NCBI RefSeq assembly: GCF_000003605.2
Contig: NW_003112967.1
Span: 135,191 to 169,394 of the forward strand
Origin: Saccoglossus kowalevskii
Lineage: Eukaryota > Hemichordata > Enteropneusta > Harrimaniidae
DNA: 34,204 nucleotides
Direction of reading: 5' to 3'
The stretch's first letter is position 1. Every line of letters begins with the position of its first letter. The position numbers and the translations under genes were made by a program. The notes beneath the pieces were generated by a model. It did no database searches. It was not told where the DNA came from and saw only the letters and a program-made list of their open reading frames with translations. This document shows, one piece after another, positions 4,201 to 29,882 of this stretch.

Positions 4201-5357
4201 AGTTCGATAAAATATTTAGTTTTAATATATTTAAGAAGGTTGTATGTATACATATATTAATTCTATATTCAATTGAATCCATCATTTATTATCAATAGAT
4301 ATGGATTTAGAAGTTTTTCGTGTGACAGTGAACAGATGATGGACTGATTCAGAGAATGACGTACGTAGTTGCCATTATAATCATTTGTATTAATGAATTG
4401 GAAAATGACAAAATTGTATTTTTTATAATTATACTTTATTTCCTTCACGTGCTGCATCGTGAATAGTATAACCATGATAATTATAAATGTATAATACGTG
4501 CTTTATGTCATAATTATTGTCAAATCTGAGAGAAATTCTAGGTATAACCCTTATGTTATTTGATACAGAGTTACATTTATTTCATTTTCGAGGTTCACGG
4601 AAATTCAGAAATATAATTAGATTAGTTTTTCGTGGGACTGTCACATCTGCATGTGTTTAACAACAAAACACGCGTTAAATATAAAGCTAGTGTAATTATC
4701 AAAATTGCAATATTGATTCTCAAGTTATTCGACTTTGTTAAATATTTATTGAAATAAGAATTCTTTAACATATTTAGATACATTTAGAATGTCGTCAAAC
4801 CGAGCACATAAATAAGGCATTTATTTGCCTTCATGATCTTTTGTCAAATTTCAAATTATTCCATTTTAGTTGCGTTGTTTTTAAAGGATGAATGTCTTTG
4901 CAGTGTATGTAATAAGTAAATGTAGTTTACGAGCCTGTATTACTATATTGTGCATGTGTACGTGCTTTCCAGGACGTGATTTCCATCGACTCATTCACGA
5001 TAAAAACGTGTATAGAAGTTTTACGCATGCGCATACAACAGTTTATTTGGGCTTTCTCTATCTCCGGATGTAAAGATAATACGAACATTCCAAGAAGGCT
5101 ACTAGACCAAACATTGTTGAAAGAAAAGCCGCACACATAATCTTAAGACGCAGCATGGTGTTTTCTCTTCTCGTATACATGTTAATGAGATAGGGTGTGT
5201 ATCAATGCGTGTATACATGTTATGTAGCAAGTAATAATGTTATATGTACATTAGGGTTGCCATTAAGAACTCTGTTTGAGTGAAACAGTAAGTGAAATGA
5301 ACAGACTGTGTAATGATTCGTTTCAGGTCACGCACCTGTAATCAATAACATACTTAC
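1241..5357. other. Intergenic or first intron of the minus-strand GPCR; no exon recognised
   Basis: If the exon at 5358-5712 belongs to a functional gene, this stretch is at least partly its first intron, because transcription runs leftward. I read both strands for class C receptor motifs (NCD3G cysteine cluster, seven membrane segments) and found none. Short ORFs here, including 1648-2094 and 2445-2798 on the minus strand, lack splice-site or family support. Confidence 0.45.
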
Positions 5358-5712
5358 CTAATGTAACATTTGGCAAGAAATCCGGCCTTTTGTTGATTTC
5401 TTCAATTGTATACACCATTGTATACATCCATTGCAGACCACGCGGGTTGAATACGTGGCATTTTCCATCGTGAGAGCGGTGTAGGTCGAACAAGCCGCCA
5501 AGTATGACGTCACCTTCTTTGTAAAAGTCGCGCTTGTTCTGAGTCTTGTTCAAGAAATGCCATCGCCAGTGTTCAGTGGTGATGTTCAACCCCTCCACGG
5601 GTACTGGGTGGTTATTGCGAGGTAGTCGTGTATGTTGTAATTCATGTACATGGTTCTTATAGCAAACTGACTGATGAAGTAGTAATACTGTTATCGACAC
5701 AACAAGCCGCAT
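5358..5712 (-). CDS. Class C G-protein-coupled receptor (CaSR/mGluR/V2R-like), first coding exon, partial
   Basis: This is the amino end of a family C receptor, which binds amino acids, calcium or related ligands through a large extracellular Venus flytrap domain. The ATG at 5712 has A at -3. The frame stays open to an upstream GTG at 5721, which is unlikely to be used. Residues 1-17 are a signal peptide (MRLVVSITVLLLHQSVC). Residues 67-75, GDVILGGLF, are the family hallmark that begins the flytrap. C85, the segment GLQWMYTMVYTIEEIN (92-107) and LPNVTL follow in the usual order. N-glycosylation sequons lie at N43, N55 and N115. The exon ends at 5358 with a consensus donor GTAAGT in phase 1, splitting a glycine codon, so the remaining exons lie leftward. 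The subtype cannot be assigned from 118 residues. The open frame through 5323 past the donor is intronic read-through. Confidence 0.85.
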
Positions 5713-5721
5713 GTTGGACAC

Positions 5722-7880
5722 TGCTCAATAGCGTTAATCGTCTGTTATGGTATGTATATTGTCATGGTAACCAACATGGTAGTTCAGTAAAGCTAATATT
5801 CACATCATGTCATTGAAGTCTCATACTACTGTTCGTGGTCATCCACGCAATTTGATCCACATTCTCTGCACAGCGTTACATATAGACGAGCAGTGCCTCT
5901 GTGCGTCATTCACTGAATGTCGACGATAACGAGCACAAATAAGCGAACGATAATGGCAACACAATTTCCGTTATCAAACCAGCTATGTCTCAAAATATAC
6001 TATGTTAATGAGTCCGATCAGATGAAGACCACCACTAACTTCTTTCCACGTAATTACGTAATCAATGTTGAATATGTATCAACGGAACAACGTAACTCGC
6101 TGCAGAGTAACTGTATGAAGTCTTTGGTAACGGAATATGGCTTGTCACCTAACACTGGGCTCATTAGCTTCGTAAATACATTGCTGAATAAACATGAGAA
6201 GAAACATATTTAATTAATTTGCAAACACCTTATTTAATTGAGATATCGGGAGATTGACGACTTCACGCTAGGTGAAGGTGTATTTGCGCAAAAACAGACC
6301 GTGTAATACTTACAATTACAACTTGTACAACTACAATATATTACAATATTATGCTAGCAGTAAAACCTGAACGAAACAAAAATATTGTTCAACGTAGTCT
6401 TCAAATATGTGTGTTGAGTGATTGGTTACTTAAAAAGCATTGTGTGGTGTTTACAATAGTACATGCCATTTTTTGCAATTAAAAGGAAAATTGCCGTAGG
6501 TCAGCCAGCCAGTATTTTGTAAAATTCCAGCTTTTCTTTGGAATGACATATATTGTTTGTGTGCACATTTGACACTGGATTGACAATGCTTGCACGTGTT
6601 GTGCCTAAATACACTGTAGACTTCCCAAATTATGCCCTACCTGTGAGACCGTGAAAGAGAAAACTAAGTGTCTGCTTATTACACCCACTCACAGTCCCAC
6701 TATCGATAGAGGGACTGTGACCCACTGTAACATTGTCGTGAATCCAATGTATACTAGAGACGAAGGTTCAACCATTGGCAACTAGGGAATGGAAGATTTC
6801 AGAAACACTGCAAATTATTAGTTTTTCCTGATTGATAGATTTTTGTTATATTACTATAATGTACGTGATGTCAGTGAGCTTGTTAGGCCTATCTGATTCT
6901 AGTTTTCAGTTTCACACGTATCATGTTTGTTTGCATTACACAACTTCTCTTGAACTATTTTCTAGCGTTTCTAATATGTGATTTCAACCTGATAGAATAA
7001 ACATTATATCATACTGTAAAGCCAGTATCATGGTGCACATTTTACAACAAACAGCTGATTTTCTTAATATACTATTGCCATCATTATGAAAAATATTAAA
7101 CTAATAATTGTTTCAGTAGCCTCCTGAGTAAATAGTCATAATACTACATGCAGGCTTTCAATTTTGACTTTGGTTTAGTTTGTATACGGGTGAAACAAAA
7201 TTAGGTGACGTATAAAGGTCGTATACTTTGATAATGAATTGACAAAGCAACATTTTTAAGATTTCCGTTGCATACCGTTGTGTTGGGTTTCTTCGATATA
7301 GCTTTTACCCGCAAAAAATATAAAAACAAAACTTATTTGAAAGAATAATGAGGCATTGAAAATGCACATTTTCAGATTATATTTCGACTAAAAGCGTTCT
7401 TAATTTTAACAGACGTTTGAACGACTGAATCCAAATTCAGAAAATAAATACAATTGCAACCTTCCGCTATACGTAGCGTGTACAGCGAAAACAAAACTGT
7501 GGCTGTATGCTGCACCACAATATATGATATTCATTTTCAATCTGTTATGCGTAAGTTTCCAAAATAGAGCGGATTACATTTATTAATATACTAGATAGGT
7601 GTAATGTAAACCGTGTCATTTGCAAGATGACGTAAGGTTCTAAGGTCAGTGACCGATGGAAAAGTTGACACACATACTTAGTATTTTAGCGCGCATATTA
7701 CATTTGGTAGTCAAACAGAGAAACATGTTTGTATAAATGTGGATGAAAAATAAATTAGTGCAAATGTGAAACATTCGATCCACTTCTTGATTAAACTTTA
7801 GGATGTAGTTGAATCGACAATTTGGGACGTTACTATGCTGTTTTCTATTATTTAAAAAATAAAATAATCCTTCTTTTTGC
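5722..7880. other. Intergenic, between GPCR exon and minisatellite
   Basis: This lies upstream of the minus-strand receptor exon, so it should hold its promoter and any 5' UTR exons, but no clear TATA box or initiator was recognised. It contains the near-perfect palindrome listed at 6689-6720 and one 98-codon ORF (5917-6213, plus) with no recognisable motif, no signal peptide and no nearby AATAAA. I do not call that ORF a gene. Confidence 0.45.
6689..6720. repeat. 32-bp near-perfect palindrome
   Basis: Left arm TCACAGTCCCACTATC and right arm GATAGAGGGACTGTGA are reverse complements except for one A:A mismatch (6699/6710). The same arm sequence forms a hairpin at 27375-27405, and a single half-copy lies at 23207-23219, so it is a dispersed family and not a chance palindrome. 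Confidence 0.85.
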
Positions 7881-9330
7881 ATTGTCATCCAAGGGGAGTT
7901 TAATTATTCTATGAGACCCATACGTGATTACATTGTCGTCCAAGGGGAGTTTAATTATTCTATGAGACCCATACGGGATTACGTTGTCGTTCATGGGGAA
8001 TTTAATTATTCTATGAGACCCATACGTGATTACATTGTCGTCCATGGGGAGTTTAATTATTCTATGAGACTCATACGTGATTACATTGTCGTTCATGGGG
8101 AGTTTAATTATTCTATGATTCCCATACGTGATTACATTGTCGTCCATGGGGAGTTTAATTATTCTATGAGACCCATACGTGATTACATTGTCGTCCATGG
8201 GGAGTTTAATTATTCTATGAGACCCATACGGGATTACATTGTCGTTCATGGGGAGTTTAATTATTCTATAAGACCCGAACGTGATTACATTGTCGTCCAT
8301 GGGGAGTTTAATTATTCTATGATACCCATACGTGATTACGTTGTCGTTCATGGGGAGTTTAATTATTCGTTGAGACCTATACGGGATTACATTGTCGTTC
8401 ATGGGGAGTTTAATTATTCGTTGAGACATATACGGGATTACATTGTCGTTCATGGGGAGTTTAATTATTCTATAAGACCCGAACGTGATTACATTGTCGT
8501 CCATGGGGAGTTTAATTATTCTATGAGACCCATACGGGATTACATTGTCGTTCATGGGGAGTTTAATTATTCTATGAGACATATACGTGATTACATTGTC
8601 GTTCATGGAAAGTTTAATTATTCTATGAGACATATACGGGATTACATTGTCGTTCATGTTGAGTTTAATCATTCTATGATACCCATACGTGATTACATTG
8701 TCGTTCATGGGGAGCTTAATTATTTTATGAGACATATACGGGATTACATTGTCGTTCATGGGGAGTTTAATTATTCTATGAGACCCGTACGTGATTACAT
8801 TGTCGTCCATGGGGAGTTTAATTATTCTATGAGACCCATACGGGATTACATTGTCCTTCATGGGGAGTTTAATTATTCGTTGAGACCTATACGGGATTAC
8901 ATTGTCGTTCATGGAGAGTTTAATTATTCTATAAGACCCAAACGTGATTACATTGTCGTTCATGGGGAGTTTAATTATTTTATGAGACATATACGGGATT
9001 ACATTGTCGTTCATGGGGAGTTTAATTATTCTATGAGACCCGTACGTGATTACATTGTTATCCATGGGGAGTTTAATTATTCTATGAGACCCATACGGGA
9101 TTACATTGTCGTTCATGGGGAGTTTAATTAGTCTATAAAACCCGAACGTGATTACATTGTAGTCCATGGGGAGTTTAATTATTCTACGAGACCTATACGT
9201 GATTACATTGTCGTCCATGGGGAGTTTAATTATTCTATGAGACCTATACGGATTACATTGTCGTCCATGGGTAGTTTAATTATTCTATGAGACCTATACG
9301 GATTACATTGTCGTCCATGGGGAGTTTAAT
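7881..9330. repeat. 51-bp minisatellite, about 28 units
   Basis: The unit contains ACGTGATTACATTGTCGT, CCATGGGGAGTTTAATTATT and a variable GAGACCCATA block. Unit length is 51 bp (17 codons) almost throughout. The units after about 9240 lose one base (TACGGATT instead of TACGGGATT). Because the unit is divisible by three and contains no stop in one frame on each strand, long repetitive ORFs occur on both strands: plus 7911-9131 (consensus MRPIRDYIVVHGEFNYS) and minus 7848-9218 (consensus MDDNVITYGSHRIIKLP). Neither has a signal peptide, splice sites or a known domain. Common variants are CGT/CGG and GTC/GTT, silent in the plus frame. Others change residues. Confidence 0.95.
8721..9131. repeat. 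Higher-order duplication of five 51-bp units
   Basis: Within the 51-bp array, the diagnostic unit with TATTTTATGAGACATATAC occurs at 8721 and again at 8976, exactly 255 bp (5 x 51) apart. Each copy is followed by the same order of unit variants (a CCCGTACGT unit, then CCCATACGGG). This shows a recent segmental duplication inside the array. Confidence 0.8.
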
Positions 9331-10188
9331 AACGTGATTATTTGGCGTCATCGTCAGCGGGTGTCTTTCTGTAAATGTTTTGCGTGTTCTTAGTAGCAGA
9401 ACAATATTGCGTACCTTGATTACTTCCACGTACTCTATCTTATGAGATAAAAAGGACGTATTACGTGTGTTGGTGCTTTACATCGCAGCATTGATTTTAA
9501 CGACACAAGGCATATACACGATGCAGGTGTTAGTGGACGTAAATCAACATGCCATCGTTGTTTCGTAATACCGCTTTACTGAGTCTCTTGTTACGACTTA
9601 CTGAGCAAACAATGTACCGCATTTTTTAGAAAGCCAGCGCGACAATTTATAATTTATTAATTATAATTTATTTATGACATTAATTTACGGCCATTTTCAA
9701 CATTATTTCAGCAAAAACAGATCAAAAAAGGGACGCCATTAAAAGACATGTTCTTAGAATAGAAATCATAGAAAAATATGACGACATTATGTGAACTGTA
9801 TGTTATTGGTCAGTGTCATTATTCCCATGTGGAAATTAAAATGTTAATAAACTAAGCCAACATACCTCAAACTAAAAATCGTTTGTTTAGCTCAAATGCC
9901 TGCTTGCTGATCGATTCTCCTAAACATCAAATAAAAATAACTAGAATGGTAAAGTACGAGGTGTTAAAGGTCACAACCTTAGTTGTATGTTCATGCGTGA
10001 TGAATGTATTCTCAACTACTACATTGGTGGCGCTATCGTAGCATTTGTAGACAAAATTCTACAAATACTTAATTTTATTCAATTAACATTATAACATGAA
10101 TATAATGTGCCTGATAACAGTTCTATAATCAGTGTCATTATTCTGGATAAACCATTGTTATTACCATATTCCAAGCTAGGGAGCGTTT

Positions 10189-10269
10189 CTATTGTAATCT
10201 GTTCTTGCCGCTTTTCTTCTGTCGTATCACCGACACACAGAGACCACCGCTGAGGGCACCAAACACAAA
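10189..10269 (-). CDS. Possible terminal coding exon of an unrecognised minus-strand gene
   Basis: A plausible 3' splice acceptor (CTCCTTTTCAG read on the minus strand, AG at 10271-10270) precedes an 81-bp open segment ending in TAG at 10189. It reads 26 residues, beginning FVFGALSGGLCVSVIR and ending in a basic tail, KKSGKNRLQ. A short hydrophobic stretch followed by a positive tail would suit the end of a small membrane protein. No upstream exon was found, and the larger open frame upstream is AT-rich and looks intronic. I do not recognise the family. It could be chance. Confidence 0.25.
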   Translation of the reverse strand, partial: FVFGALSGGLCVSVIRQKKSGKNRLQ

Positions 10270-10742
10270 CTGAAAAGGAGATATTTTAGAGATTCTTTTA
10301 TTTATTTTAAATATATCCCGATTTAAATCGTAATAAAAAAAAAAATTACAACTGTCAGCCTGGCGTAATTGATGGTACACCAATACAATGCGCAAAGCAA
10401 CCCAAGGCTATGACCATTGGCGGCGCTCTCATATACAATAAACGGCATTTGTAACCCTGTTTAGAATGACTAAATATAGATAATTATAGATTACGTAGGT
10501 GGCTGTACAGAGCTGCTGCTTGTTCATATTGTCACATCCACGGAACGTACACATTTGGCGAAAACAAACGCAGAACTTGTTCTACTTTATTACCGTTGAT
10601 GGTTGTCAGCATCCTTTATTCTGTTTAGGTCATATTGCCTCGAACCCTGCAAATAGAAGTGTGCATGGAATCATGGGAAGAAACGGTGTACATTGCCGTG
10701 TGATAATTGTCATAAAGGTGATTGACAAGTCATACTTGTTTT

Positions 10743-10870
10743 CAACTATGGAAGGACAGTGGGTTCTACCGGGTGTGGTTGTGGTTTACATAACACAGGG
10801 TGTTTACAACTTTGGAAGGACAATTGGAATCTACGAGGTGTGCTGTTATTTGAATAACAAAGATGTTTAT
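10743..10870. repeat. Two-copy 64-bp tandem duplication
   Basis: CAACTATGGAAGGACA at 10743 and CAACTTTGGAAGGACA at 10807 start two diverged copies 64 bp apart. Both end in a GGTGTTTA/GATGTTTA-type block. A further direct repeat, GATTGGCTCATGTGGAT, follows near 10914 and 10937. Confidence 0.6.
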
Positions 10871-13023
10871 GATCTACTGAGTTGCCTATGTGACACAGCT
10901 TCTAACATGATTCTGATTGGCTCATGTGGATTGATTGATTGGCTCATGTGGATCCCCAGGTGGTGTCCCTGAATCTGGGCCATTTATGCCTATAAATTGG
11001 ACAGACTGAGGACAGTTAGTGTCCATCATTTCTACTGTGTATAGCTAGTGCGATATTGTGAGACAAGTGATACAGACTTCAACCATTATTATGTGAGACT
11101 TGTATGAACTGCTCTGCAATCTCCTGCTTCCAGTGGTGTCCCCCCAGAATAACAGCATTCCTCTGCAAGCAAGACTCCTGCATTTCTTCATTGTTGTGTT
11201 GCAGAAGCCATTGACTGCCATCAATTTCTTCATCCTGGAACTGTGAGTTATCACCAATGCACATTTCCCAAAGCAATCCCCTATTTTAATGAATTTATGC
11301 ATTGTATTATTCTGTGCTTTGTGTCGTGTAATTATTTTGAGAGGTATTAAAGCCAGGAGCTTTAACTCAATATTTTGGTGTATGCGTATTTCATTTCCAG
11401 TACTATTGTCTTGTCTACCCCATTCTAGCAGTGAAAGAATCTCCTGTCCAGTGTGAGTTCTGTGAGTGGCTCTCTCATTAGCGATAAGCAGGCTTTACAC
11501 TGTGACAGTGCTTTTGTTTAAGAATATTCATGGCAGCTTTGATTAAAGGGCGGTAGTCGTCGTGCCAGGCATGCGCGAGATATATGGGTCTCATACAAAC
11601 AAAGATGGTGACTTTGACTGTTGCGCAGATCAACTAGTACAAACTGAGACGTTTCCAAGCTTTAATTAGAGAATTTTTAGGTGATTGGAAGGTATCGAAG
11701 GAGTCACCGGTGGTTTCAGTGCAAGCCACGCCCAGGTCAAACCTCATACTTGTGATTTCCATTTGACGAGCGCATTGGATTGTAGGAAAATCAATGTTTA
11801 TCAACACAAACGTAGCACATGCGCAGCGCAGCGACCACGACGCTTTAGAACAAACCTGTTTAAGAATGTTGAAATCTGAACAGTAATATTCATTGCAATG
11901 ACGTTATACTTGCTAATAACAAATAAAGATTTCAACAATTAAATGTGTTACGGATGATACGATTTTATTATCAATATCTCGTACCAGTTTTATAACTGTC
12001 GCTTATGTGTAAAATGTATTGTTTTTATCACAAAAAATGCTATCGCGGGCAAATACTGTCTTTTAGTTGATCCAAATAATTATTCCCTGTGACAATTATC
12101 CAGTATAAACATCGTCATTATTATGTATAATACATAATTCCATTTACAATTCAATTTTCGTCGTAGATAATATAATCACTAATGTGTGATCCATAAAGCA
12201 CCAATAATCAATTTTGAAATTTCATATTTCTGTTCAGAATTACCTTTCCGTTAATGCGATTCATAGTATAAAAATAACGAAGGGTAGAATATGCAACCAT
12301 CATTAACTGCACATAACATCTATTCTTGACCTGAGTGATGCGACACATGTATTTCGTGTACCCTAACCTAAATAATTCGTTGTTTACGCCAGCATTTATT
12401 TGTAAAATACAACCTTGAACGAGGTTATTGAATGTACATTTGTAGTTAGAACGCTACAACAAATATGGGATGCGGCATTGATAAGGAGTTATTTTGTATA
12501 GTTGTAATATCAAATAGTTGTCACAAATTACTCCAAGAAACATCGTGCATAATAATAAGGATGAACGAGTATTATATCTTTACACACAGGATATGGTGTC
12601 AAACTATTTCCTCTGACCCTAATTCGGATGTGCCTTATCTTTGTCCTATCATGACCTCTCCGCAAATTGAATACGCGTTAGTGAATCTCAAATCTTCTAC
12701 TTGTTTTGGCAAAGGATCAACACGTCATATCTAACTCTGTGTTACGTAACTACTATAATAACATATCTAATGAAATATCAATTTAAAGTTAATGAGTGTA
12801 GGACCGGATGTCGTCGGCACAAGGACTCTACTTTATGATGACCTCAGATAAAAGATTAGGCCATTGTTTAACCTGTCCAGAGTTAGGATGAGTGGGCTGC
12901 ACTGATTGGTTATATCTAGTCTTAAGACCAACATCACATGACATGAGATAGTGAGGCATTGTTTAAAGCATTGCTTTGCTCTGATCTGTCCACTCTTTGC
13001 ATCCACCCGATCCAGCAAACACC

Positions 13024-16000
13024 ATGTCAAAATTGTTCTTCTTAGTAGCTGTTGGCCTTATGGCCTATGGTAAGTCGTATTTATTTTGAGGTGAACATTT
13101 TGCAACGTCAGCAACTCGCATCAAATCATGCTATGCCAGTCTTAGATTCGCAGTGCCGACACGAGGGCGAATGCAGTGTCGCCCGATTTAATGTCTTTTT
13201 GTTAAGGCACATGTTAATTATCAGATGGAACCAATAATAAAAAATATAATAGAACAAATGTGGTTTTTATTAGCAAGGGGCGAACATATAAATCCACAAT
13301 TTAGTGTTGAACGTTTCAAAGTTGTCCATAATGACTCAAAGACAAAATGCTATCATCTGCTGCAATTATCAAAATTAAAACCTTTGTTGCACAAGGCATG
13401 CATAATGTAGTACGTTTAAGTTCGTAAAAAACTAATATTTTGGGGGAATTTCCCATTAAGCTGATTGTTTTATTTAAAGGTGAATTCAATAGACTTTAAC
13501 CGTCTAGTCGCGACGTACAGACATTAGAGTGGCTAATCTCCAAAAAGTGTGTTCGCCGTGTGGCCATCCAAAGGTCAGGTTTCCACCAATGCACCTTGGC
13601 CTGTGTAGTGTCTGACTGGACTTGTAACATGTTAGCACTGCGTGTGTACTACGTTATCTTTTTATTTTACATTAGGTATATTTGAACATGTTACATGTTG
13701 GCCAGAAAGACCCTGAATTGCAAGAATGTGATGCCGCATAGTTCTCATATAGCACATTATACCGCATCGCGACAAGAATAGCTCTAAAACGCCAATGAAA
13801 AGATGAAAAGACAATCAAATGTCAGTTGTGTACCTACTCCGAGTGGACACCAACTATTACGAGCAAAGCCACAAACTTCCTACTGCTTTTGATAAACAAA
13901 TATACAAATGAATGAATATCTTTTTTTCTCCCAGCTGCTGCATATACTGAATTAACAGATGAATTAGATGAATTATACCCAGGCGGACTTCCGGATGACA
14001 TGGCTTTTGCACAAGGATTTGCAGGCATATTTGTGAGTTATATTTGTGTATTAGCATATCTACTGGTAAAGATCATAAAATTTGATTATTTTAAGATAAA
14101 TCTTATAAATGTTTTATCTTTTAAAGTTTTCCAATGTTTAAAATAATACATGTCGTGGATTAGTTTTTGTCGCCTTTTCATTTTTTTTAACAATTTGTAA
14201 CGATTTATCAATGGTGTTTTGAAGCATGGACTACCTTTCAATGTAGTAGAATAGTCCAGATCACGGTATCATTTGATCAAGACCATCATATTTGGCAATC
14301 TACCAATGGAAGCATATATCGTGAAAAGGAAGCTATAAGATAAAGATAGATAATACGGGGAGTTCAAAGGTCGTTTTTATGGTAGTAACATTGACTAACT
14401 CATTTATTATGCGCCATTGGGTAATGTTGTGGTGGAGCAACGCTAGAATATATTACTTATAATATGTAATATTATATTAATATTACTATTAAATATGTAA
14501 ATATATTATTTCTGAAATAGGTACTTCATATGATAGCTAAAACGCGTTATTATCAACGTATATATTAGTAAGTCTAACTTGATTTAGGTTGATAGTATTA
14601 TCACAATAGCTGTATAAAGTTCATCATATCCCTGTGATATCAGTCGAATAGGTTGGTGAATATAATCACAGTGACTGTAGACAGTTCAATCCATCATAAG
14701 GTGAAATTTGACAATTCTAGAATAAATAATATGTTTTAGGAAGAAAGTGCCGACGACGCCTCAGAAGAAGGAGAAGAAGCAAAGAAGGGACCACTCGCAG
14801 AACTATTTGGTGGCATCCTTGGAGGTGATGGCAAAGGCCCTTTTGCCGAGGCTTCACTTTTACGACTGATGATGTTGAGACGTATTTTGGGCGGACAACA
14901 ATCGCAACAAGGCTTCGGTCCTCTCAGCGGTCTTAATCGTCCTTCTGGAAGCTTTGCCCGTCAATTGATAATGCTGCGTTTAATGGGAAAGAAATTCGGA
15001 ACCAAGCTTGTTGATGAAACGTTTAAGAGAAAGGAACAAGAAAGGGTGTACTCTTTCGCTGCATCCCTTGGCTGTGATGACTGCGTACATGAATACACGT
15101 GAGTGTTTTACTGTGACCAATCCGTACAATTTATGTAGTGTGTCATTTTAACACGGGCACTTGGCTTGTATAAGCAAGACTTGTGACACTTTCACTGATT
15201 TTTAAACGCTCTCCTTTATATTAGAATACAGACTTTTGGAAAATCAAAATACACTTATTTTAGAGGAACGTCTCTGTGCATTGATGTTGGCTCAGATGGA
15301 AATGGTTACCTATATATGTTTTTGCATTTCTTTCAGTGACGATGAAAACAACATGAAGGGATTTAGCCTCGATGTCGTCAAAGCAGGTAAGTAACTGTGT
15401 GAGATGATATTCTGTTACACGTGTTTACAAGCCATTTCTTCAATGGGATAAGTACCATTGCACAACGCATATGATAACGTTTATTATATATTTGTAATTA
15501 TCCAATAGTATGCGAGGAGGCTGGCAAGAAATGTATTACTATGTATGACGCTCATTCCAATTGTTATACCCACGTGCAAGGAGAACATTCAAGAGCCGGA
15601 GTTGGTAAGCACGACAATTGTATAAAACTGTAATGATTTTATTTGTATAATTGTAGTCACATATAATTCAATAGCTGTATTTATAACACATGTGACCAAC
15701 ATATTACGTTTACTATTATTTTCAACTAATAGGTTTGATGAACAAATATTATGATGGGTGTTTGACATGGTTGCGAACAGCTGAACGTCTCCATTCTGTG
15801 AAATTCACTGAGCCTTATGCCCAAGCCAAGACTACCTCCCATCTCTACGTCAAAAAAGGCGGTGAATTCCCTGCATCAGAAGCAGTTGGAAAGAAAATTG
15901 GTAAGAATGATTGTAACCACATCTTTTAGTGTTTTGTTTTATTTTCCTTAAATAAATGTCTTAATTGTGAATGGTTTGTATGAAACTTGGTAGGTTTCTT

Positions 16001-16859
16001 GGATGGATGGGTCAGTGATGAAAATTGCTTGCTTCAGATGAAACCCGAGGATGTTGAATTGCCAGACAGAATGCGACCAGAGAACGCTGTATATTTGAAG
16101 AACAGGAAAGAACTGTTTGAACAACTCGAATCAGACAAGGTGAGTACAGCTTGTATTGCTGATATTGATATGCTCAGAGAAATATCGATCAAATAACATC
16201 TTAATTCGTTGTTGTTGCCTTTATATATGCTTTGCTTTGTAACCTTAATAAGTCTCAAAGTTATTATACTCAATTCATCTCTAAGGAACGTGTATTAGCA
16301 TCATTATTTTAATCACTAAATTAAAGAATATGACATACGTCTATCATGGATGACTTCAGCCAATTGATCTTGCTAAATAAATGGTTAGATGGATCATACA
16401 ATTGTACAATGTCTTGGATTGACTCTCTCTTTATATGTAGTTTTTTTATTTGGTTTCATAAATATGCTATGTCTTGCAGCTGGATGCCGTTTTCCTGTTG
16501 GACATCAGTGCTGCTGAAGCATTGAAACGAGGATTTGTACAAATGGGAGAAGGTACCGTGTGTGGAATGGGTGGTACCATTCACATCATGTCCCGTAAAG
16601 ACAGTACAATGCCACAATGGTTTGATTCAACTCTCAAATCAATGAAGGAGTCTGGTAAATACTATGCATTGTGTGCAAAGGCTCGCCAGGAACACGGTTA
16701 GTACATCATATAATTTATATATTGTGTCGTGAATATCAGATAAACACAGTGATATGGTTGTCTGTACCCGAAGTGGTATAACTATTTAACCCGTCCAATA
16801 CACCTGATAAATCTATTCATCTATTTTCAGCTGCCCGTGGTGAAGTGGAATGCACATAA
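13024..16859 (+). CDS. Secreted protein with bacterial-type solute-binding (SBP_bac_3-like) domain, nine exons, complete
   Basis: Exons 13024-13069, 13935-14032, 14740-15098, 15337-15386, 15509-15604, 15733-15900, 15994-16139, 16480-16696 and 16831-16859 join in frame to 1,209 nt (402 residues plus stop). Every intron is GT..AG. Residues 1-18 form a signal peptide (MSKLFFLVAVGLMAYA...). Residues 49-62 are acidic. About 65-145 are a Gly/Leu/Arg-rich linker with a dibasic site (LRR, 94-96). Residues about 150-402 resemble periplasmic amino-acid-binding proteins: GFSLDVVKAVCEEAGKKC (176-193), then YYDGC (222-226), T232-A-E-R235, FTEPY (241-245), GKKIG opening lobe two, and LDAVFLLDISAAEAL (322-336). 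In the bacterial family the Arg of the T-x-E-R motif and the Asp equivalent to D329 hold the ligand's carboxylate and amino groups, so an amino-acid-like ligand is inferred. Extra cysteines (160, 163, 186, 193, 203, 226 and others) suggest disulfides. There is no membrane segment, so secretion is likely. The start has A at -3. Confidence 0.88.
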
Positions 16860-16991
16860 ACGGACAAAAGACTTTTCTTCAGTAACATCTTTTCGGAAAT
16901 TTGGTTTTAATAGAAGATGATTAATTTAAATAACACAAGTAATCTTGTTTGTATTTGATTCCAATATTAAAGATGTTCTTTAATACTATGT
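16860..16991 (+). other. Probable 3' UTR and polyadenylation signal of the solute-binding-like gene
   Basis: The stop codon is followed by AT-rich sequence. A variant signal ATTAAA lies at 16966-16971, and a canonical AATAAA follows at 17094-17099. Either could direct cleavage. The first would give a short 3' UTR of about 130 nt. Confidence 0.5.
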
Positions 16992-19900
16992 ACATGTTTA
17001 GATGTTTTATGTTACACTACAGCTATTTGAAGTTGAAGTAGAATACCAGTGGTGCTTTTGTTCGACGCATTCCTTGATTGCCTGCTAGTTTATAATAAAT
17101 AGTAATTATGTTTTAAAAACCATAAAACATATTTGATAGATGGTAATGCACTTATTACAACATAAATAAATTAAAAATGCAGACATTAATATAGAAAGAC
17201 TTGTAGGTCGAAGTCAATAATGCCGCGTCATTAATCTCGGATAAAGTCTCAACCCAATGAGGTTACACACACGTTTCTCGACACATAGGGCCTGGAACAG
17301 CCACTAGTGGCGCTGCATAGTTTCGAAATCTCGCAAAGGTAGACTTATAGTGTCAAGAGCTGCTAGCAGCATTGTTAAATCACGTGACCATATGGTTGAA
17401 AGGTGTACAGTCTTCAAATAACCATAATAGAAAAGGTGGGGACCAAGGCCGAAAATATATGTTTACGGCGTTTCATTAATGCTTTCTATTAATAATTGCA
17501 CATTAAATAATATTCGTGAAATATGTCTACGTAGGAACCTCATTAACGTTATAATAGATATCTAATTTTTAGCTCTGGATGCAACGACCATATGATTAAT
17601 TAAAGATAAGATATATTATCAATCAATGCACACCTTGCGCTATCAGTTGACCTCAGATAGCTATGGTGAGATAGCTGCTCCGATTACTTATATATCGACA
17701 GCATCTATTGACATGAAATGACGAGACACGTTATTTTTCCTGTAACAGCCCTAATAAATCCATCGTTGTTCGCACACATATACAATTTCCCATAATGCAT
17801 TGTAGCGATAGCATCAATGTAAAGCTGCAATTCAAAATCTGTCTCTACTTTCATCCTGTATCCAAACAAAATCTTTTGATTTTAAAATTCAACATTGAAC
17901 AAACTGACTCACTCGCATAACATTACAGAAAGCATTTAAACTATTTCAACGTGCCCCTAACCGTGACTCTAACAGCATCAATCATTATCTTTGGTAACAA
18001 GTCTGAAATGTAAATAAATAATGAATGCGATTCCTGTGTCGTTCGAATTGAGGTGAATATAGCTTTGATTTCGTTAGGGAACATTTTTTTATTATTGGAT
18101 ATTTTTCCCAGATTACTAGTATTTGCCCGAACAAATTGCTATTGAACTTGATGTAAACATATATAAAATATGACATATATTTTTTTTTCTGTGAATGCCT
18201 ATTGCCAAGATCATTTTAATCTCGCATTTCAAATATCTCTTGTGTAACACATCCTTAGTTATTTTTTTTGCATCAGAAAAAAAACATGACTTCAGTACAT
18301 GCATTTCAAATTAAACTAATATTATTCTCTTTTAGTATATATTTTGCACTAACACAACAAATGACATAGTGAAATCATCGTTATAGTTGTCAACCCTATA
18401 AATTAAATTAGGCGAGTCTTAGTTTATTGTTTACATCAATTGTTTTATTAATTCCATAATGTATTACACATAAATTAAAACAACTAGAAGAGATAGCCCA
18501 ATGTATTTTGTGCCAGTCCAAATGTCAAGGATTTTCGTCATCAAAGTCGTCAAAGTACGATTGATCAATTTGGGGGACATTTGAAATGTATATGGTCCAA
18601 ATCACGACCTTACGTCTTTTAAATTTGTATTAGACAAAGATATACAAATCTAAAAAGATCAGTGTCAACCAATACAAAACTCACAACGTATCTTTCTGAC
18701 ATGTTTATCATAACTGCTCATGCGTGTAAGTTGGTTATATGCGGCAGATTATCGAAACAAACCTTCAACTAGGATCAACCTCGAGATATAGACGCTGATT
18801 ATGTTTGTTTTAAGTGTACCGGACAGTGCACGCTTCCATTGGAACAATTACTATAATTTCACAAATCATTCTTCTCTTCTTCGTATATCGCCATATTGTC
18901 AGCTTATATTCATATTTTAATGTACGAGTACGTGAACTTGTTATCATTTGTGATTCTGAAAGACAGTTGTTATAATCTGTATGAATTTTTGTGTATTGTA
19001 CTTTCAAGGATGTTTTATAATAAATGGTGTCTTTACTCGATGTTAGCAGTGTTTCCTGTCATCTCGTCTATTTGTCTATACATGTGTCTATGCGAAGAAC
19101 TCAGTGGACATTCGCCCTCTATCGACCAACGAGTGACAGGTCACACCATTCAATATGTAAGTGAAGAATTCATAAGTCTTGACCAGACTGCACACCCACT
19201 CATCAACACACCGCACACTATACACGATACACGATATGTATAAGGTTAGGTTGCAGGATGTAGCCACGTGGAACAGTCCGACCAACCATTTATTTACTCA
19301 TTTGTACAAACTCCATTCTAAAACCATTTTAAAACCCGGCCGGAAAAACTAAAATTCACATTACTAAAGTAATAACGATAACATAACTATAATGCAAAGA
19401 AACTAAAAAAAAATGATACACAAATATAAACTAATTTATATCCCCCTTTTTAGCACACAGACCGCCCAGAAAAAACAGAGATAAAAAACCCGCTTTGGGT
19501 AAAAATTAAGCTGGAAACCAGTACCCGTCGCCTTGTCATGTGCGCCAGAGGATGGATGTCGGGTTTCATCCAAACCAAAATATTAACAAAGTACACTACT
19601 TAAAAATGTTCAAGGAAAACTGAACCGTGGCTAGTCCAGCGTAGAATGAATTACCATTGCAGACTTCTGCCTTATATACCTACAAATCACGTGCCTTACA
19701 TAAAGTTTATGATTGGATGTTGACATCATGTGAAGACAATAGTTTCCCGCTATACTGGCGAACCGCGGGAAACTTTATGTATTTATTGAGTGATCACGTT
19801 TTTGTTCTCAATTCTATAAATTCTACTTGTTTATAATACACAGATACATTCACCTGTTCACAGTGTGTTCATATAATGACAGGTCGGTTGCATCCAATCC

Positions 19901-20578
19901 TGTGGTGGATGAGATAGGGTTGCGTTGTGTAGAGGAATAGACTCCATGGGACAAAGTCAGAGTTCCGTGAGATTTACTTTATTACAAGACGTCAGACTAC
20001 ATTGAAGTCAAAACCAAAACTACTCCCTCAAAAAATCTGGTAGCTAGGAGTATTTGCATAATGTTGTCAAAATAGAATACATAACTATGATTGGTTCAAT
20101 TCAAAGTGGAAGATTCCACTATCATAGCAACAAGTAATTAGTCTTAGTTACGAGTCAAAGGTTATAGAAAGAGGCGGCAAGATCAACACCTAACATGGCA
20201 ACATTAAATGATAAACAAGATACAATGTAATACAATGTTATACTACACAGGTAAACAGTATAAATCTGAACCATGTAAATAAATAAATTTTGAAATGTTG
20301 ATTGCAACGGAGCTCTCAGCGATAAATTCTTTACAGGGTTAATACAACATGCACATGATATGCATTCGATAAACTGCGCATGGTGTATCGTCTGAGATCG
20401 CCTTGGACTGCAAGGTTTGGTGCACCTTAAGACAAAACGTCATCTGCACGGCTTCAATTCCTAATTTTCGAGTTGTTGGTTTTCTACGGAATTCCGCTAG
20501 AGGGCGCATCCAAAATACCCGGATGACGAGCCTGAGTGGGGTTGTTTTTATTGAAGTTCTGTATTCTTACATGCGTAA
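16992..20578. other. Intergenic, no gene recognised
   Basis: About 3.6 kb without a convincing coding region. Open frames such as 18896-19243 (plus) have no family motif and overlap A- and T-rich tracts. The part from about 19260 to 20300 has less AT bias, with blocks like GGTCGGTTGCATCC and a TTTACTTTATTACAAG stretch. It could be old LTR-retroelement debris, but no matching pair of ends was found. Confidence 0.4.
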
Positions 20579-21061
20579 ATCAATAGATGGAAAAGCAAAA
20601 AAGTTCCAGAACTCCGCAAATTTCTTCTGGATCGTGGTATAACTTGCAGCAATATTAATGTTCGTAAAGCTAAACTTTTTGAACTTGTTGAGTTAGCAAA
20701 CGAGTTAAATGTTCGTCAAGAGTCAAACAATCGTCGTCGTACTGTAAAACACAGTGAGTCGACAATAACTCTGGTAGATCCATGTAACGTAAAAACTTGG
20801 CAAAAAAACCTTCATACTTTGCCTTTGTTTGAAATAGCTGATATGTTCGCATATTTGTTGCTGCAGCATCGAAGTGACTGGACATCAACAGCCAGACTGA
20901 AAGAATATCGACTTGATAATGGCCATTTACTTCATAATGTCCGTAAAGCTTCATCATGTGCAGAATACAGAATTTATTTTCATTATGACAGAGTGTATTC
21001 GGCAATGATCCATGAAGGAAAATCCTTACAATACATGGTTTATTATCAAATCAAACTCTAA
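20579..21061 (+). pseudogene. SAP-like/SWIM-transposon-associated ORF fragment, frameshifted
   Basis: An open frame of 160 codons without a starting ATG. It begins with KVPELRKFLLDRGI and continues with NVRKAKLFELVELANEL, the two-helix pattern of SAP-like DNA-binding modules. It then has DMFAYLLLQHRSDW and RLKEYRLDNGHLLHNVRK, a pattern I associate with invertebrate multicopy proteins that usually continue into a SWIM zinc finger or YqaJ-type nuclease. Those downstream modules are missing, since the frame ends in TAA at 21059. A possible start in another frame (MRKSIDGKAKK, from 20571) would join through a one-base shift in the A-run at 20597-20602, which suggests decay. The family assignment is from memory of the pattern and is tentative. 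Confidence 0.45.
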
Positions 21062-22091
21062 AATAGTTTCTGGTGTTTGTAAATGTGTAGTGTAAGTTTG
21101 AATTAATATGATTCACCAGGCGATCAGCAGATGCAGTTATCATAAATGTTTTTGTTTGCGCTCGTCTCGGGAAGCTGACAGTCTTCGTTTTTCAATCGAT
21201 GTATAACTGTGGTTGAAAGACGGCTGTCTCCAGTTATTGAACTAAAAAAATACTGGCGCAGGATGGAAAATGCCCTGAACAAACCTGGGAATATAGTTTG
21301 GCGTCCACTCAGGTTCCCGACGACGCATTCGAATCCACTGGCGTTGAAGTGTTTATTTCTTGGACGAAAGAAGTGTATGAAAAGTTACGTCTTTCATCTC
21401 AGGATATTTCGCTGTTTTTTTCTTTTTAATCGAACCTCATGAATAACCTGTGGCATTACAATACCAGTTAACCATTTTGACCAATTCTTGCAAAACGTTT
21501 GTAAAAAACTAGTATATTGCTTACAGCAGACGCCGTTCAAATTCAACCCCACCACGAACGTTGAACGGACTGTCATCTGGGTACTTTGAGAACGCCCTCT
21601 ATCGAATTTCGTGAGAAAAATAGTAACTCGGAAATTAGGAATTTGTTCACCTTTGTGAAACCATAAATCTCACTACTATACAATGAAAATGTTAAAACTT
21701 TGCCATCAAACATTCAAAGTGGTAGCCTGGTATCAACACTAACTACAAATTTATTTAGGGCTTTCTTAATAACAAATAAAGGTAATTTTACAGTATAAAT
21801 TTTCACCAAGAAACAGTTTTACATACGACTTGAGTTTGCTACCACCCCTAAATACATCAATTTTTGATTTGTCAGTATTAACCTTTAACCTCAATTTATT
21901 AGCATAGGTGATTTAACAGAACGTTAGAAGACTTTGCAGACCAATCGCAGTTGAGCACAATTCGTTGCACAGCGGGTCCCCTGTTTTTCCTAAATAAAAA
22001 CGCTTTTGGCGGTTTTTCGATTCTAAATGCTATTGTCTATAGTGGTATATTTTTCTACTTACATTCGCATTGGTGGACAACAGCTATAGCT

Positions 22092-22150
22092 GAGCCTCGC
22101 TAAGACCGAGCCTCGCTATGACCGAGCCTCGCTATGACTGAGTCTCTCCG
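22092..22150. repeat. 16-bp tandem repeat
   Basis: GAGCCTCGCTATGACC-type units start at 22092, 22108 and 22124. A diverged fourth starts at 22140. The repeat is short and GC-richer than its surroundings. Confidence 0.85.
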
Positions 22151-23206
22151 CCATAGTTGTGTCAGATAATCCGAGAACAACCGTTGTTCTGTTTTATTTG
22201 CAATGATGATAAAGTAATTTTACACATTTTTTTTTTTTTTACATTATTTGCCCCAGAAACTACCGTGTGTCTGATTGCTTTCTGGTTCTTTCGTGTCAAC
22301 AAACAAGGACGTGCGTTGAAAAGATTGAGTTTGTTGACGGTCTTAAAGACTTTAGCAAAATTACAAAAAAAAGTGTTTGAGGTACCACAAAGGGCAATAT
22401 GATATAAATACGTCAGTATTCATTTTATTAGATTTAATACAGATTTACTCCTAAACTGAGCTGTTGGCATAATTGTAGCAAGACACACTACTGTCATCCA
22501 CGCTGTGTAGCAATATACTGTCTATTAATAATGAACTGTCCCCGCGAAATGTAATATTGCGAGGAGAGCCTTTCCATGAATTTGAAAATGATATATTTTT
22601 AAACCAAGTTCGGAAGAGATATGTAGAATGCAATTATACAAGAAATTATGGGATTGACTCCGATGACGAAACAAAAATACTACAGCAGCGAAAACCCAGA
22701 GATTAACTGCAATTTATCAAATGAATATAAATAAGTTCAACCTATATTAGTTTGAAGAAAAAAAAACTTGGCTGAGAAAGGATTATTACATACAACATAA
22801 GCTATCACACAACCATCAAAACTTACCGTGTTCACACAACAATAACGCCGCCTTAAAATCACGCCCTTAATATCACAGGATAGCATGGGCTCAGACATTA
22901 GTTATCCGGGGTATAGGCTAAGAAATCAAATACATTATAGCCCGTACTAAGAAAACGTGTGTGAACGCTTAGCACGAGCTAAGAAATGCTAAGTACGGAT
23001 TAAATCCAGAGTTATGGGGAAACTAGAATTGTGATTGCATATTACAGCATAAGACATGGTGAGAGTGTGTACAAATGCTCAGCAGTCGCTGGGTTGGTGT
23101 GGCTTGTTAGCTTGTGTGTGGGCGTGCGTGAACGCTTAGCTCAATCTAAACTCCCAAAATATTATTGTATTCAATGTTCATTTGGAAGATTTACTAAAAA
23201 TCGCGC

Positions 23207-23219
23207 AGAGGGACTGTGA
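23207..23219. repeat. Half-copy of the CACAGTCCCTCTAT palindrome family
   Basis: AGAGGGACTGTGA matches one arm of the palindromes at 6689-6720 and 27375-27405. Here the partner arm is absent. It ends 7 bp before the target duplication of the adjacent DNA transposon. Confidence 0.6.
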
Positions 23220-23492
23220 GTAACTCAACTATCAGGCCCATTTATACTTTTTTCGTTATCCGTTATGAGGGCTTTTTAATTCCTGGTGATGCGTCTCGGG
23301 ATTTTTAATTCATGGTGATTCGTTCTCAGCTAATTTCTCGTTCTACGTTATAGGGTGTAATGAATTCCCGGTGATACGTTCTCGCTTTTTAATTTCGCGT
23401 TATGCGTTCTTTGACTTTATTTCCCGTTCTCTGTATTGTACGTTGAATTGCGCCACCAATAGTTTAAAATCGGTACACCAGAGTGTTGTTTT

Positions 23493-23741
23493 NNNNNNNN
23501 NNNNNNNNNNNNNNNNNNNNNNNNNNNNNNNNNNNNNNNNNNNNNNNNNNNNNNNNNNNNNNNNNNNNNNNNNNNNNNNNNNNNNNNNNNNNNNNNNNNN
23601 NNNNNNNNNNNNNNNNNNNNNNNNNNNNNNNNNNNNNNNNNNNNNNNNNNNNNNNNNNNNNNNNNNNNNNNNNNNNNNNNNNNNNNNNNNNNNNNNNNNN
23701 NNNNNNNNNNNNNNNNNNNNNNNNNNNNNNNNNNNNNNNNN
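23493..23741. other. Assembly gap (249 Ns)
   Basis: An unbroken run of N inside the DNA transposon. Open frames drawn across it are artefacts. The gap size may be an estimate, so the element length is approximate. Confidence 0.99.
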
Positions 23742-24902
23742 TCATTTTTTATTTTCCAAGAAACATTCCGAGCGCCTGTGGTTTGCTGGTGTGTCTGAGA
23801 AATACTTGAGGTTTCATGTACGTCTTTTAATGCTAACACGCTTTATTACATGATAAATTATAGTTTTCTTCTAAATTGTCCTATTGTTTATTGATTCCTT
23901 ATTTCGTCATAGTTTTCCAATAGAATAATAAAGGGTTCATCACTTTTAATAATGTATAGTAGATAAGGAAAAAATGTTAAAGCGTTTTCTCCTGTTCTAC
24001 AGGAACGTATATTATTAGAATTAATTTTGAATTATTCATTTGAGAACTATTTTTAATGTGCAAATTATTTTCATACTTATGAACCCCCTTCCCCTCATAT
24101 TTACTGATTTCTATTTATTTCTAGACCACGAGTTAAAGTCATTATTTGGCTATATATGCAATGATTAGTTTTAGATTAAAATCTGTTGATATTAATTCCC
24201 TGATTAGCATAATATAGTATAATTTTTGGGGTTATAATCTCATTTAAATGAAACTTGCTACATGGATGGTCTGTTACTTTGCACAGACCTTATTAGTTTC
24301 ACACTAAAATCTGTTCATATTAATTATCTGATTTGCATAATTAGTTTTGAACTTTTCCATCAACATCTCAAGTACAAGTAATTTTGAATTAATTTTCAAT
24401 GTGTCTCCATTACTCAGCACACGAGGGTTCTTTCTAAGCTTTCTTTGATATTATATTTATTTGACAAACTACTTTTCGTCATCTTTACTTAATTTAGTTG
24501 TTTATTTTGTATCAGTATGCCAGATCATTTGGGAACACAATTAAAGAAAGTTTGAAAAGATCATGTAATTGGTCTATTACTTCACCAATCCCTCATCGTT
24601 TTATCCACCAGCCACAAACCAAGTTTTATTTTGAGACATTCCAATGTTCCAACCATTACCAGTTGTACGCATGTGAAAAGAGGATCATGAGAAATTGGGC
24701 TGTTGACAATGGGAAAGTTGTTAGACAAAGATAAATCCGACAAGAAACACACATATAAGGCAGGTGCATGGCCACTGAATCTGTAGAAGAAGGTGATACC
24801 AATTAGTGAAACATTGCAGAGAGAGAGACATGATTTGTCAGATGGGTCGGCTGTTGAGAAGGACACATGGGAGAAAACTGATGAGCAGAGAGAGAGGAAT
24901 AT

Positions 24903-25785
24903 AGTAGTGATGAAAACAGTGGTTCAGAAACTGAGGAAGTAGATAACACGAAAGAAGTGACATTCTATGAATTTATCAGGGGTAAATTCTTGTACTCTCG
25001 GGTTTCTCCACACTTGTCAGGGGGGAATCTCGTCTCGTCTCTCTATCTCGTCCCCTCGAGGTACGGGATCGGGAAAGTCACTTTAACTTTACAGTCAAAT
25101 AAGACACACACAACGAAATACGTTTCAGCTCTCGTCTTAGTCGGTCAATCGAGCACTCTATAAGACACAGCGCCTGGAGAAAAATCCCCAAGACTATCTC
25201 AAGGCTGACCCAAGACTCTTTTAGACTGCTTCAACACTCCCCCAAGGCTCTCCAGGACTGCTCTCGACTGCTCAGGACTGCACTCCCTCTACTGCGTCTA
25301 TCGTGCTGTGCTCCCCAAGACCAACTCAAACTCTCTTTATTCATTTTCAAAACTCTAACCAATTACAAAGCAGTAAAAAGACTCTAGGGCGTAACCTTCA
25401 ATCATAAAGCCAATCACACTAGGTACTGAATACGTCATATCTTTTGATTAATCGTTCACTACATTAATAACTATGGAAACCAACTGTCAGAATAGCGACG
25501 ATTATCTTGTAATTAGTTCCAAATCACTGAGCCAAGTTCCGTCCAAAACTTCACATAGGCCTAAACGATGACCGACATAACACAGCAATTCAGCTAATAA
25601 TCAACTAATTAAGTCGGTCAACAGATACGCAAAAACAAATTCATGACAAATTACTGAACAAAGAGAAGCAGTGTGTGCAAGATAGGTTGGCTCCTGAACA
25701 GAAAGCAACTAGGGAAACTGTTGCACAAAGGGACGACAACAGTAATGACGAGAACAGCAGTTTAGAAACCGAGGAGATAGATGGT
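24903..25785 (+). pseudogene. Remnant acidic-repeat ORF inside the DNA transposon
   Basis: Two related segments, SSDENSGSETEEVDN (24903-24947) and SNDENSSLETEEIDG (25741-25785), are diverged copies of one acidic motif. The second lies in an open frame with an upstream charged stretch (KLLNKEKQCVQDRLAPEQ) and continues to a stop near 25914. The first lies in a frame disrupted upstream. They suggest one formerly continuous repetitive, charged protein carried by the element, now interrupted by the insertion at 24990-25637 and by frameshifts. There is no catalytic domain, and the function is unknown. Confidence 0.45.
24990..25637 (-). mobile_element. Candidate solo-LTR-like insertion nested in the DNA transposon
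   Basis: About 648 bp with GC and repeat content unlike its host, flanked by AATTC on both sides (24985-24989 and 25638-25642). Read on the minus strand it starts TGTTTTTGCG and ends GAGTACAA, close to a TG..CA LTR pattern. It has an AATAAA on that strand (within CTCTTTATTCA at about 25334) followed by a CT/AG-rich tract. No internal coding region or primer-binding site remains. The AATTC match is short and could be chance. Confidence 0.4.
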
Positions 25786-26002
25786 TTCAAACAGAAAGAT
25801 CAGTTAAGAAATGTATGTCTAACTACTATGTCTGACCAGCAATCAAAGTTAATGTCAGATATCTTCAATAAATGCTTTTATATTCAACAACAATTTCTGG
25901 TGATTGGTGGATAGGTAATTGGAATTTCTGGTGATTGGTGATTTCCCTCTTTAAATCTTGGTGATTGGTGATTGGGAGGGGGTATAAATGGGCCTGAACT
26001 AT

Positions 26003-26694
26003 AAAACTACGTAAAACGCATATTTACTAATTTAACGTTTTGAAATAGTTACTGAAACTTTGAATAATGAAAGAATGAACAATATATCAATGATCTATAT
26101 TGTAACAATGCGAAAACAACCAATAATAGCCGGAATAAAATAAACTACATTCCTACAAGAAGTATGTAGAATAGACACTCACTTAGGGGTGTCTCGTTCA
26201 TTTTAGCACCATCCTAGCTGGCCAGGCCACGTTCGAAGACGCACAGACCAAATACTTCCGGTTTACTGTTGTTCGTCTCGAACGACGACGTTTGTAGTTA
26301 TTTTTATATTTGGGACATTTTAACCGCTCCAAACACTACGTGACGGGTGGAATTAGAAGGTTAGTCATCTTACGACTCAACATTAGAATCGATTGCGCTC
26401 TGGTAATTGTATGTTTTATATCTCTAGATAATATACGTAAATGTCATGACCCTTTGTCAAATGTTGTGACCAACTCTGTCACGGTGACCTTTTTTTAATG
26501 TTGTCAGTGCGTCTTAAAATGGACGTCCATGGTCGTATTTATGGTATGGTAACTTGTTATTCCGTGAAATTTCCCGCTAGTCTGCAAAGCCCCGAGGATG
26601 GTACCTCTATTGATTTTTTTGATTACATAACCCCACGGGCGTGGTCAACACATCTAACAAGACGAGTTGTGAATGAGGTTTAGGGTAATTCACG

Positions 26695-26697
<3 letters not shown>
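26003..26697. other. Intergenic, no gene recognised
   Basis: Unique-looking sequence between the DNA transposon and the TAA microsatellite. Short open frames at 26310-26498 and 26498-26683 (plus) have no recognisable motif. Confidence 0.45.

Positions 26698-26751
<54 letters not shown>
26698..26751. repeat. (TAA)18 microsatellite, tail of the minus-strand LINE
   Basis: Eighteen uninterrupted TAA units. On the minus strand this is a (TTA)n run directly after GCAATAAAGT, the arrangement expected for the 3' end of a non-LTR retrotransposon that uses a microsatellite tail instead of poly(A). Confidence 0.95.
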
Positions 26752-26752
<1 letters not shown>

Positions 26753-27228: not shown

Positions 27229-27374
27229 TAATAATATAATGTACAGCTTACAGATATACTAGTAGCTTATCACGATTTAAAAATCCAAGAGGAAAAGTAG
27301 ATTACAAAAAGTAGGTTAGTCAGAGATGAAATTAGAACAGGCTGGGGGTAGGTGAGTTGAAGGTGAAGTTAGGG

Positions 27375-27405
27375 CACAGTCCCTCTATGTGATAGAGGGA
27401 CTGTG
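27375..27405. repeat. Perfect 14-bp hairpin, CACAGTCCCTCTAT family
   Basis: CACAGTCCCTCTAT (27375-27388), loop GTG, and ATAGAGGGACTGTG (27392-27405). The arms match the palindrome at 6689-6720 and the half-copy at 23207-23219. There is no T-run after it, and the context is intergenic. Confidence 0.9.
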
Positions 27406-29870: not shown

Positions 29871-29882
29871 ACATCTGTGAGC
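29871..29882 (+). other. TFG: Probable 5' UTR end of TFG after splice acceptor
   Basis: TTAGTGTAG ends at 29870 and is followed by 12 nt of leader before the ATG. A frame-extending GTG at 29877 is not expected to initiate in an animal gene. Confidence 0.5.

Follow-up and report, generated by a model that had tools for sequence, protein, structure and literature searches.

A multicopy family of putatively secreted, bacterial-type binding-protein genes in the hemichordate Saccoglossus kowalevskii

Why does an animal carry a gene for a protein of the kind that captures amino acids in the bacterial periplasm, and is that protein still built to bind them? The question is raised by a gene at positions 13024-16859 (forward strand) of a 34,204-nucleotide stretch of DNA from the hemichordate Saccoglossus kowalevskii (assembly GCF_000003605.2, contig NW_003112967.1, positions 135,191 to 169,394). 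This is the whole stretch that was analysed and we call it the window; in our genome searches it is C687:135191-169394. Taken together, the sequence comparisons incline us, with appreciable reservation, to read the gene as a member of an animal family that has expanded, its products being secreted, soluble family-3 binding proteins that stand alone, are rich in cysteine and have a remodelled pocket. A previous reading of the same DNA from its letters alone (the sequence-only reading) had proposed a secreted amino-acid-binding protein of bacterial type, possibly gained by ancient transfer. The stand-alone, secreted-looking gene with its bacterial-type domain survived our analysis, the case for amino-acid binding came out weaker and the transfer was left unsupported.

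The gene has nine exons separated by eight introns, all of which are GT..AG, and its coding sequence of 1209 nucleotides yields a protein of 402 amino acids. After splicing, the gene frame contains the final stop only, and the other two frames hold 19 and 30 stops; the content of guanine plus cytosine is 44.9% in the exons versus 32.5% in the introns. The introns and the 402-residue frame bear out the nine-exon spliced animal gene of the sequence-only reading. In the protein, the Pfam model SBP_bac_3 (PF00497) matches residues 166-388 (3e-12, 46.9 bits against a cut-off of 26.4), and a profile built from 14 bacterial members gave the real domain 56.6 bits, compared to 6.9 bits for the best of 2000 shuffled versions. 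The profile search, with SBP_bac_3 above its cut-off, thus confirmed the periplasmic amino-acid-binding-protein domain that had been proposed.

The relatives found in databases are bacterial and remote. Six curated bacterial models were listed, of which the top four describe lysine/arginine/ornithine- and arginine-binding proteins, all far under their cut-offs, and the matches in PDB were led by two bacterial proteins, STM4351 (1e-4) and 6svf (0.002). Plasmid records gave 38 matches, 28 of them covering at least 80% of the query; among the 20 rows listed of these 38, identity was 23-27% over 89-95% of the query. In species genomes, identity was 23-28% in the 80 sequences kept of 250 confirmed relatives. 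This set came from a scan with two patterns taken from an alignment in which three of four rows were Art proteins, and consists mostly of enterobacteria and Vibrio kin, a biased sample that is uninformative on a donor. When six of its genomes were searched whole, each returned one match (27-37% identity), two of which cover the domain partly. A single-protein scan across 84,980 species, each represented by one genome, is sensitive to close relatives only; it produced 15 pattern matches and no relative, and a scan of IMG/VR produced three pattern matches and no relative.

The SBP_bac_3 family itself is old and well known. With its bacterial members from E. coli (HisJ, ArgT/LAO, ArtI, ArtJ and GlnH) the window protein has in common a profile match over most of the domain and a layout of GF..D......C, T..R, FTEPY, GKK.G and DAV, and with HisJ, LAO and the Art proteins it also shares the cysteine pair Cys186/Cys193. 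It differs from them in its introns, an N-terminal extension, extra cysteines and an insert loop, in a tryptophan at a pocket position and an acid shifted by one residue, in its occurrence at 18 two-exon places in one genome, and in that no importer permease was detected in that genome.

These places came to light when the genome (572,110,611 bases in 4830 contigs) was searched with the window domain. At E up to 0.01 this returned 45 pieces, those of the window gene among them; with two other copies as query, 26 and 36 pieces were found at E up to 0.001. We grouped the pieces by hand, and the resulting counts are lower bounds on places, some of which may be broken copies. Pieces of both the exon-6 and the exon-8 type occur together at 18 places, and 15 of these lie in tandem runs: six on contig C812 (192-238 kb), five on C3981 (391-433 kb) and four, in two pairs, on C1168. 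The remaining ones are single, on C885, on C2441 and in the window itself (C687), and other pieces only were found at partial places on C46 and C1875. On these matches, the gene belongs to an expanded family of about twenty places, which is not visible from the window alone. In the flanks of the window on its contig, which are mostly N, the readable parts contain no further family copy. The C46 copy (L136, C46:434415-434605) reads from exon 6 into exon 7 without an intron. The copy at C812:200847-201042 may be broken, since its exon-6 match falls into two stretches that overlap.

Aligned to each other, the copies retain a common set of residues. W229, R235, F241, V256 and F262 are invariant in the nine exon-6 rows, C226 is present in all eight rows that cover its position, and G339, C349, H356, R360, K361, W368, G380, Y382, Y383 and C386 are invariant in the eight exon-8 rows. 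A ninth, shorter exon-8 piece (L137) stands outside the alignment; it starts after D329 and by eye has an arginine in the place of H356. Exon 5 was compared in two other copies, whose pieces retain Cys186, Cys193 and Cys203 together with the insert loop, a feature that the aligned bacterial relatives lack. Five other places match the end of exon 3 (about residues 113-161) with E 0.014-0.55, and the three of these that were read all have VYTF.....CD where the window protein has VYSF.....CD. In closer pairs of copies, the rate of nonsynonymous substitutions (dN) is below that of synonymous ones (dS), with dN/dS of 0.065/0.752 and 0.117/0.812; selective constraint acts between some closer copies.

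A search of the whole genome with PF00497 listed 11 places. Eight of them were read, and by eye all eight look like glutamate-receptor exons; the window gene was not among the 11, probably because its domain is split into short exons. Since such a search of the raw genome missed it, genes of this type may be under-annotated elsewhere; orthologs may already stand in animal protein databases under an automatic name.

The protein starts with MSKLFFLVAVGLMAYAAA, which is signal-peptide-like as judged by eye and by Kyte-Doolittle hydrophobicity. Windows of 19 residues exceed a value of 1.3 only where they start at residues 1-5, and there is no second hydrophobic span. The earlier statement that the protein has no membrane anchor is in agreement with this single N-terminal span, and its claim of a signal peptide and secretion holds in so far as the start of the protein resembles a signal peptide by both measures. 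These properties support a soluble, stand-alone protein that looks secreted. The signal-like start is followed by an acidic stretch rich in glycine and leucine, and this by the domain, which holds all ten cysteines of the protein (residues 160-401). A Pfam scan of residues 1-159 gave no domain match, and the acidic stretch matched no other place in the genome at E up to 1. Within exon 3 (about residues 88-133), two LRLM strings are each followed, a few residues on, by paired basic residues (MLRR and GKK), of which we take GKK to be an amidation-like site. A peptide-hormone precursor was considered for this stretch and dropped, for by our estimate a four-letter repeat in a leucine-rich stretch arises easily by chance, and nothing else supported the idea.

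In bacteria, proteins of this type serve transporters, none of which the sequence-only reading had seen next to the gene. Pfam scans of parts of the window agree with this in finding no transporter. With stops read as residues and an E limit of 0.01, they covered both strands of 20000-29999, the forward strand of 17000-20500 and the reverse strand of 3301-7500, and left out 1-3300, 3301-7500 (forward), 7500-13000, 17000-20500 (reverse) and 30000-34204. Their sole match, to AzlD, reached 18.6 bits, below the cut-off of 23.7, and was set aside. Across the genome, an exon-by-exon six-frame search for the importer permease PF00528 detected none (0 of 1, with 14 of 14 prokaryote controls positive), which is good rather than complete evidence, because such a search can miss split genes, as the PF00497 search did with the window gene. 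As PF00528 was undetected, we do not class the window protein as part of an amino-acid importer of the ATP-binding cassette (ABC) type.

For the ligand pocket, we compared the window protein to bacterial proteins in 12 MAFFT alignments (three sequence sets, each under four settings), using as pocket positions the residues that we take to be the ligand contacts of HisJ. Of these, Arg77 presumably holds the carboxylate of the ligand and Asp161 its amino group; an arginine on the carboxylate together with an acid on the amino group is the arrangement seen in HisJ and in glutamate receptors. Arg235 of the window protein falls on Arg77 in 12/12 alignments, Leu117 is kept as leucine equally often, and Asp11 meets Asp161 of the window protein in 4/12. 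The invariance of R235 and W229 in nine of nine family rows, with D329 kept in seven of eight, suggests a site under selection.

Several results weigh against the reading we prefer, as does the limit given above for the permease search. The column of HisJ Asp161 is occupied by Leu328 in all 12 alignments, so that Asp329, one residue off, matches it in none; the columns of Ser69, Ser70 and Ser72 hold threonine, tryptophan and arginine, those of Thr120 and Thr121 tryptophan and valine, and that of Leu52 histidine, in each case 12 times out of 12, and Tyr14 is never kept. In the one exon-8 row without D329, from C2441, the residue is glutamine. One recent exon-8 pair is little constrained (dN/dS 0.048/0.073), and distant pairs are saturated. 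With most pocket positions of HisJ different and Asp329 shifted, the site may therefore bind no amino acid, or nothing at all. Of the arginine and aspartate that had been thought conserved, the former stands and the latter is out of register, though a feature of most family rows, and with most other pocket positions different as well, the earlier proposal of amino-acid binding is weakened. Asp329 may still reach the ligand, because the corresponding acid of glutamate receptors also ends an FLL[ED] string. The main alternative is a protein that has kept the fold and lost the binding, its disulfide-linked scaffold now serving as a structural or matrix component, for instance in mucus, a tube, a shell or an egg coat. 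It would account for a pocket that differs from HisJ at most of the positions compared, with a tryptophan at Ser70, for the concentration of ten cysteines in the domain and for an N-terminal stretch without counterpart; it leaves the conservation of R235, W229 and, largely, D329 in need of another reason, and we consider it unlikely, while taking it seriously.

A second origin to be weighed lies within the animal itself. The ligand-binding domains of ionotropic glutamate receptors are distant relatives that share the fold, and a soluble offshoot of such a receptor, its ligand-binding halves joined once the channel was lost, could in principle give rise to the window protein. In our reading of the sequences, the insert after the first helix forms a loop of about receptor length and the acid closes an FLL[ED] string as in receptors; furthermore, a clade of the window protein and glutamate receptors is not rejected by the approximately unbiased (AU) test (p-AU 0.473). 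Unlike these receptors, the window protein lacks a second hydrophobic span, and its receptor score is inside the range of shuffles: on profiles of four members each, the domain obtained 45.4 bits with bacterial proteins (best shuffle 7.9) versus 4.5 with receptors (best shuffle 10.1). As a control, the bacterial GlnH scored 57.2 bits on the same receptor profile. Exon pieces were also joined for the window gene and for five other copies. Their scores ranged from 13.5 to 42.3 bits on the bacterial profile of 14 members, from 4.8 to 27.6 on that of four members and from -1.2 to 3.5 on the receptor profile, and all six favoured the bacterial type. The Pfam glutamate-receptor model reached 12 bits (cut-off 30), the six chains listed from PDB (E up to 10) include no receptor, and the Cys186/Cys193 pair is that of HisJ. 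The profile scores of the domain and of the joined pieces led us to reject the receptor offshoot as the main reading; we deem it improbable, and the comparisons support a domain of bacterial family-3 type rather than a receptor ligand domain. The trees leave descent unsettled, with a window branch of more than 3 changes per column and 3 of 19 and 5 of 17 branches well supported; given this long branch and the p-AU of the receptor clade, the ancient transfer suggested earlier was not borne out. That the sequence is bacterial, through a contaminated assembly or a transfer in the very recent past, would agree with the type of the domain. This reading is left with next to no credibility by the eight introns, several of them inside the domain, by the 18 two-exon places on six contigs and the partial ones on two others, by an identity of 23-28% to the listed bacterial rows and by the lack of any close relative in the scan of 84,980 species; contamination we reject on the introns and on the diverged copies on several contigs.

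If the family does consist of secreted binding proteins, the two lobes of the domain would come together around a small extracellular ligand. The conserved arginine would hold its carboxylate and the nearby acid its amino group, so that an amino acid, or some small charged molecule resembling one, would be the probable ligand, and Trp229, the insert loop and the extra cysteines would reshape the rest of the pocket. Up to five disulfides may stabilise the binder. With no ABC importer to supply, the task of the protein would not be to feed an uptake pump but to store or buffer the ligand, or to carry or present it, with mucus, gut, egg or chemosensory fluid as candidate settings. The roughly twenty related places suggest that a nutrient catcher of bacterial style became this animal's own family of extracellular binders. 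More speculatively, and as a whole rather doubtful, an animal lineage might have taken up a bacterial-type binder, freed from its transporter, and multiplied it to about twenty secreted carriers with diverged pockets, in a role for amino-acid-like molecules resembling that of odorant-binding proteins. Insect odorant-binding proteins, small secreted binders in tandem arrays, are an analogy only; their fold is unrelated to SBP_bac_3.

In seawater as in body fluids, free amino acids act both as nutrients and as signals and, to our knowledge, most of the extracellular amino-acid binders described in animals are receptors or transporters in the membrane. Soluble, secreted family-3 binders encoded by many genes would add a little-studied level to the ways in which animals handle or sense amino acids, and would show a bacterial module at work once its pump is gone. 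Among the titles listed in literature searches, none concerned a secreted animal SBP_bac_3 protein or family, which is weak evidence of absence. Bacterial-type binding-protein genes in other eukaryotes are described in passages of two reports. According to one, the plant-parasitic nematode Radopholus similis has an SBP_bac_6 gene (PF13343) with five introns, counted among putative secreted proteins and 50% identical to a Rhizobium protein (PMC8601627); according to the other, anaerobic fungi carry SBP_bac_3 genes from independent transfers to single species (PMC11291939). As far as these passages go, the window family differs from both in being more diverged and multicopy, and the nematode gene belongs to another family.

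Features of the binding-protein gene, in window positions, with the basis on which each was placed.
Feature	Position	Strand	Content	Basis
Exon 1	13024..13069	+	Start codon and most of the signal-peptide-like stretch	Gene model, hydrophobicity
Exon 2	13935..14032	+	End of the signal-peptide-like stretch, beginning of the acidic/Gly-rich stretch	Gene model
Exon 3	14740..15098	+	Acidic, Gly/Leu-rich stretch, then segment leading into the domain (RVYSF.....CD)	Gene model and genome search
Exon 4	15337..15386	+	SBP_bac_3 segment GFSLDVVKA	Gene model and Pfam
Exon 5	15509..15604	+	Cysteine pair Cys186/Cys193, shared with HisJ, LAO and Art proteins; insert loop after it	Alignments
Exon 6	15733..15900	+	Motifs YDGCLTWLRTAER, FTEPY, GKKIG	Gene model and exon-6 alignment
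Trp229 codon	15768..15770	+	Position of HisJ Ser70	Alignments
Arg235 codon	15786..15788	+	Column of HisJ Arg77	Alignments
Exon 7	15994..16139	+	FLDGWVSDENC segment	Gene model
Exon 8	16480..16696	+	Motifs DAVFLLD, RKD, GKYYALC	Gene model and exon-8 alignment
Asp329 codon	16501..16503	+	One residue past the column of HisJ Asp161	Alignments
Exon 9	16831..16859	+	C-terminal tail with Cys401, stop codon	Gene model
ATTAAA, possible polyadenylation signal	16966..16971	+	107 bases past the end of the stop codon	Motif only

Scans of the window for Rfam families and tRNAs found none. Elsewhere in it, an open stretch on the reverse strand (5323-5724) has a signal-peptide-like start and its matches in PDB are to the beginning of calcium-sensing and metabotropic glutamate receptors (best 2.5e-10), with Pfam ANF_receptor at 0.13 only; a class C receptor that points away from the binding-protein gene probably has its first exon here. 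Positions 7880-9330 are a tandem array of 28.5 copies of a 51-base unit, open on both strands over 475 and 422 amino acids, and at 15-409 and 30585-32548 there are a tandem array with 12.6 copies of a 33-base unit and repeats of greater length (280, 148 and 302 bases). A further open stretch on the reverse strand (26878-27258), examined in translation only, resembles what we take to be the C-terminal end of a reverse transcriptase of the long interspersed nuclear element (LINE) type.

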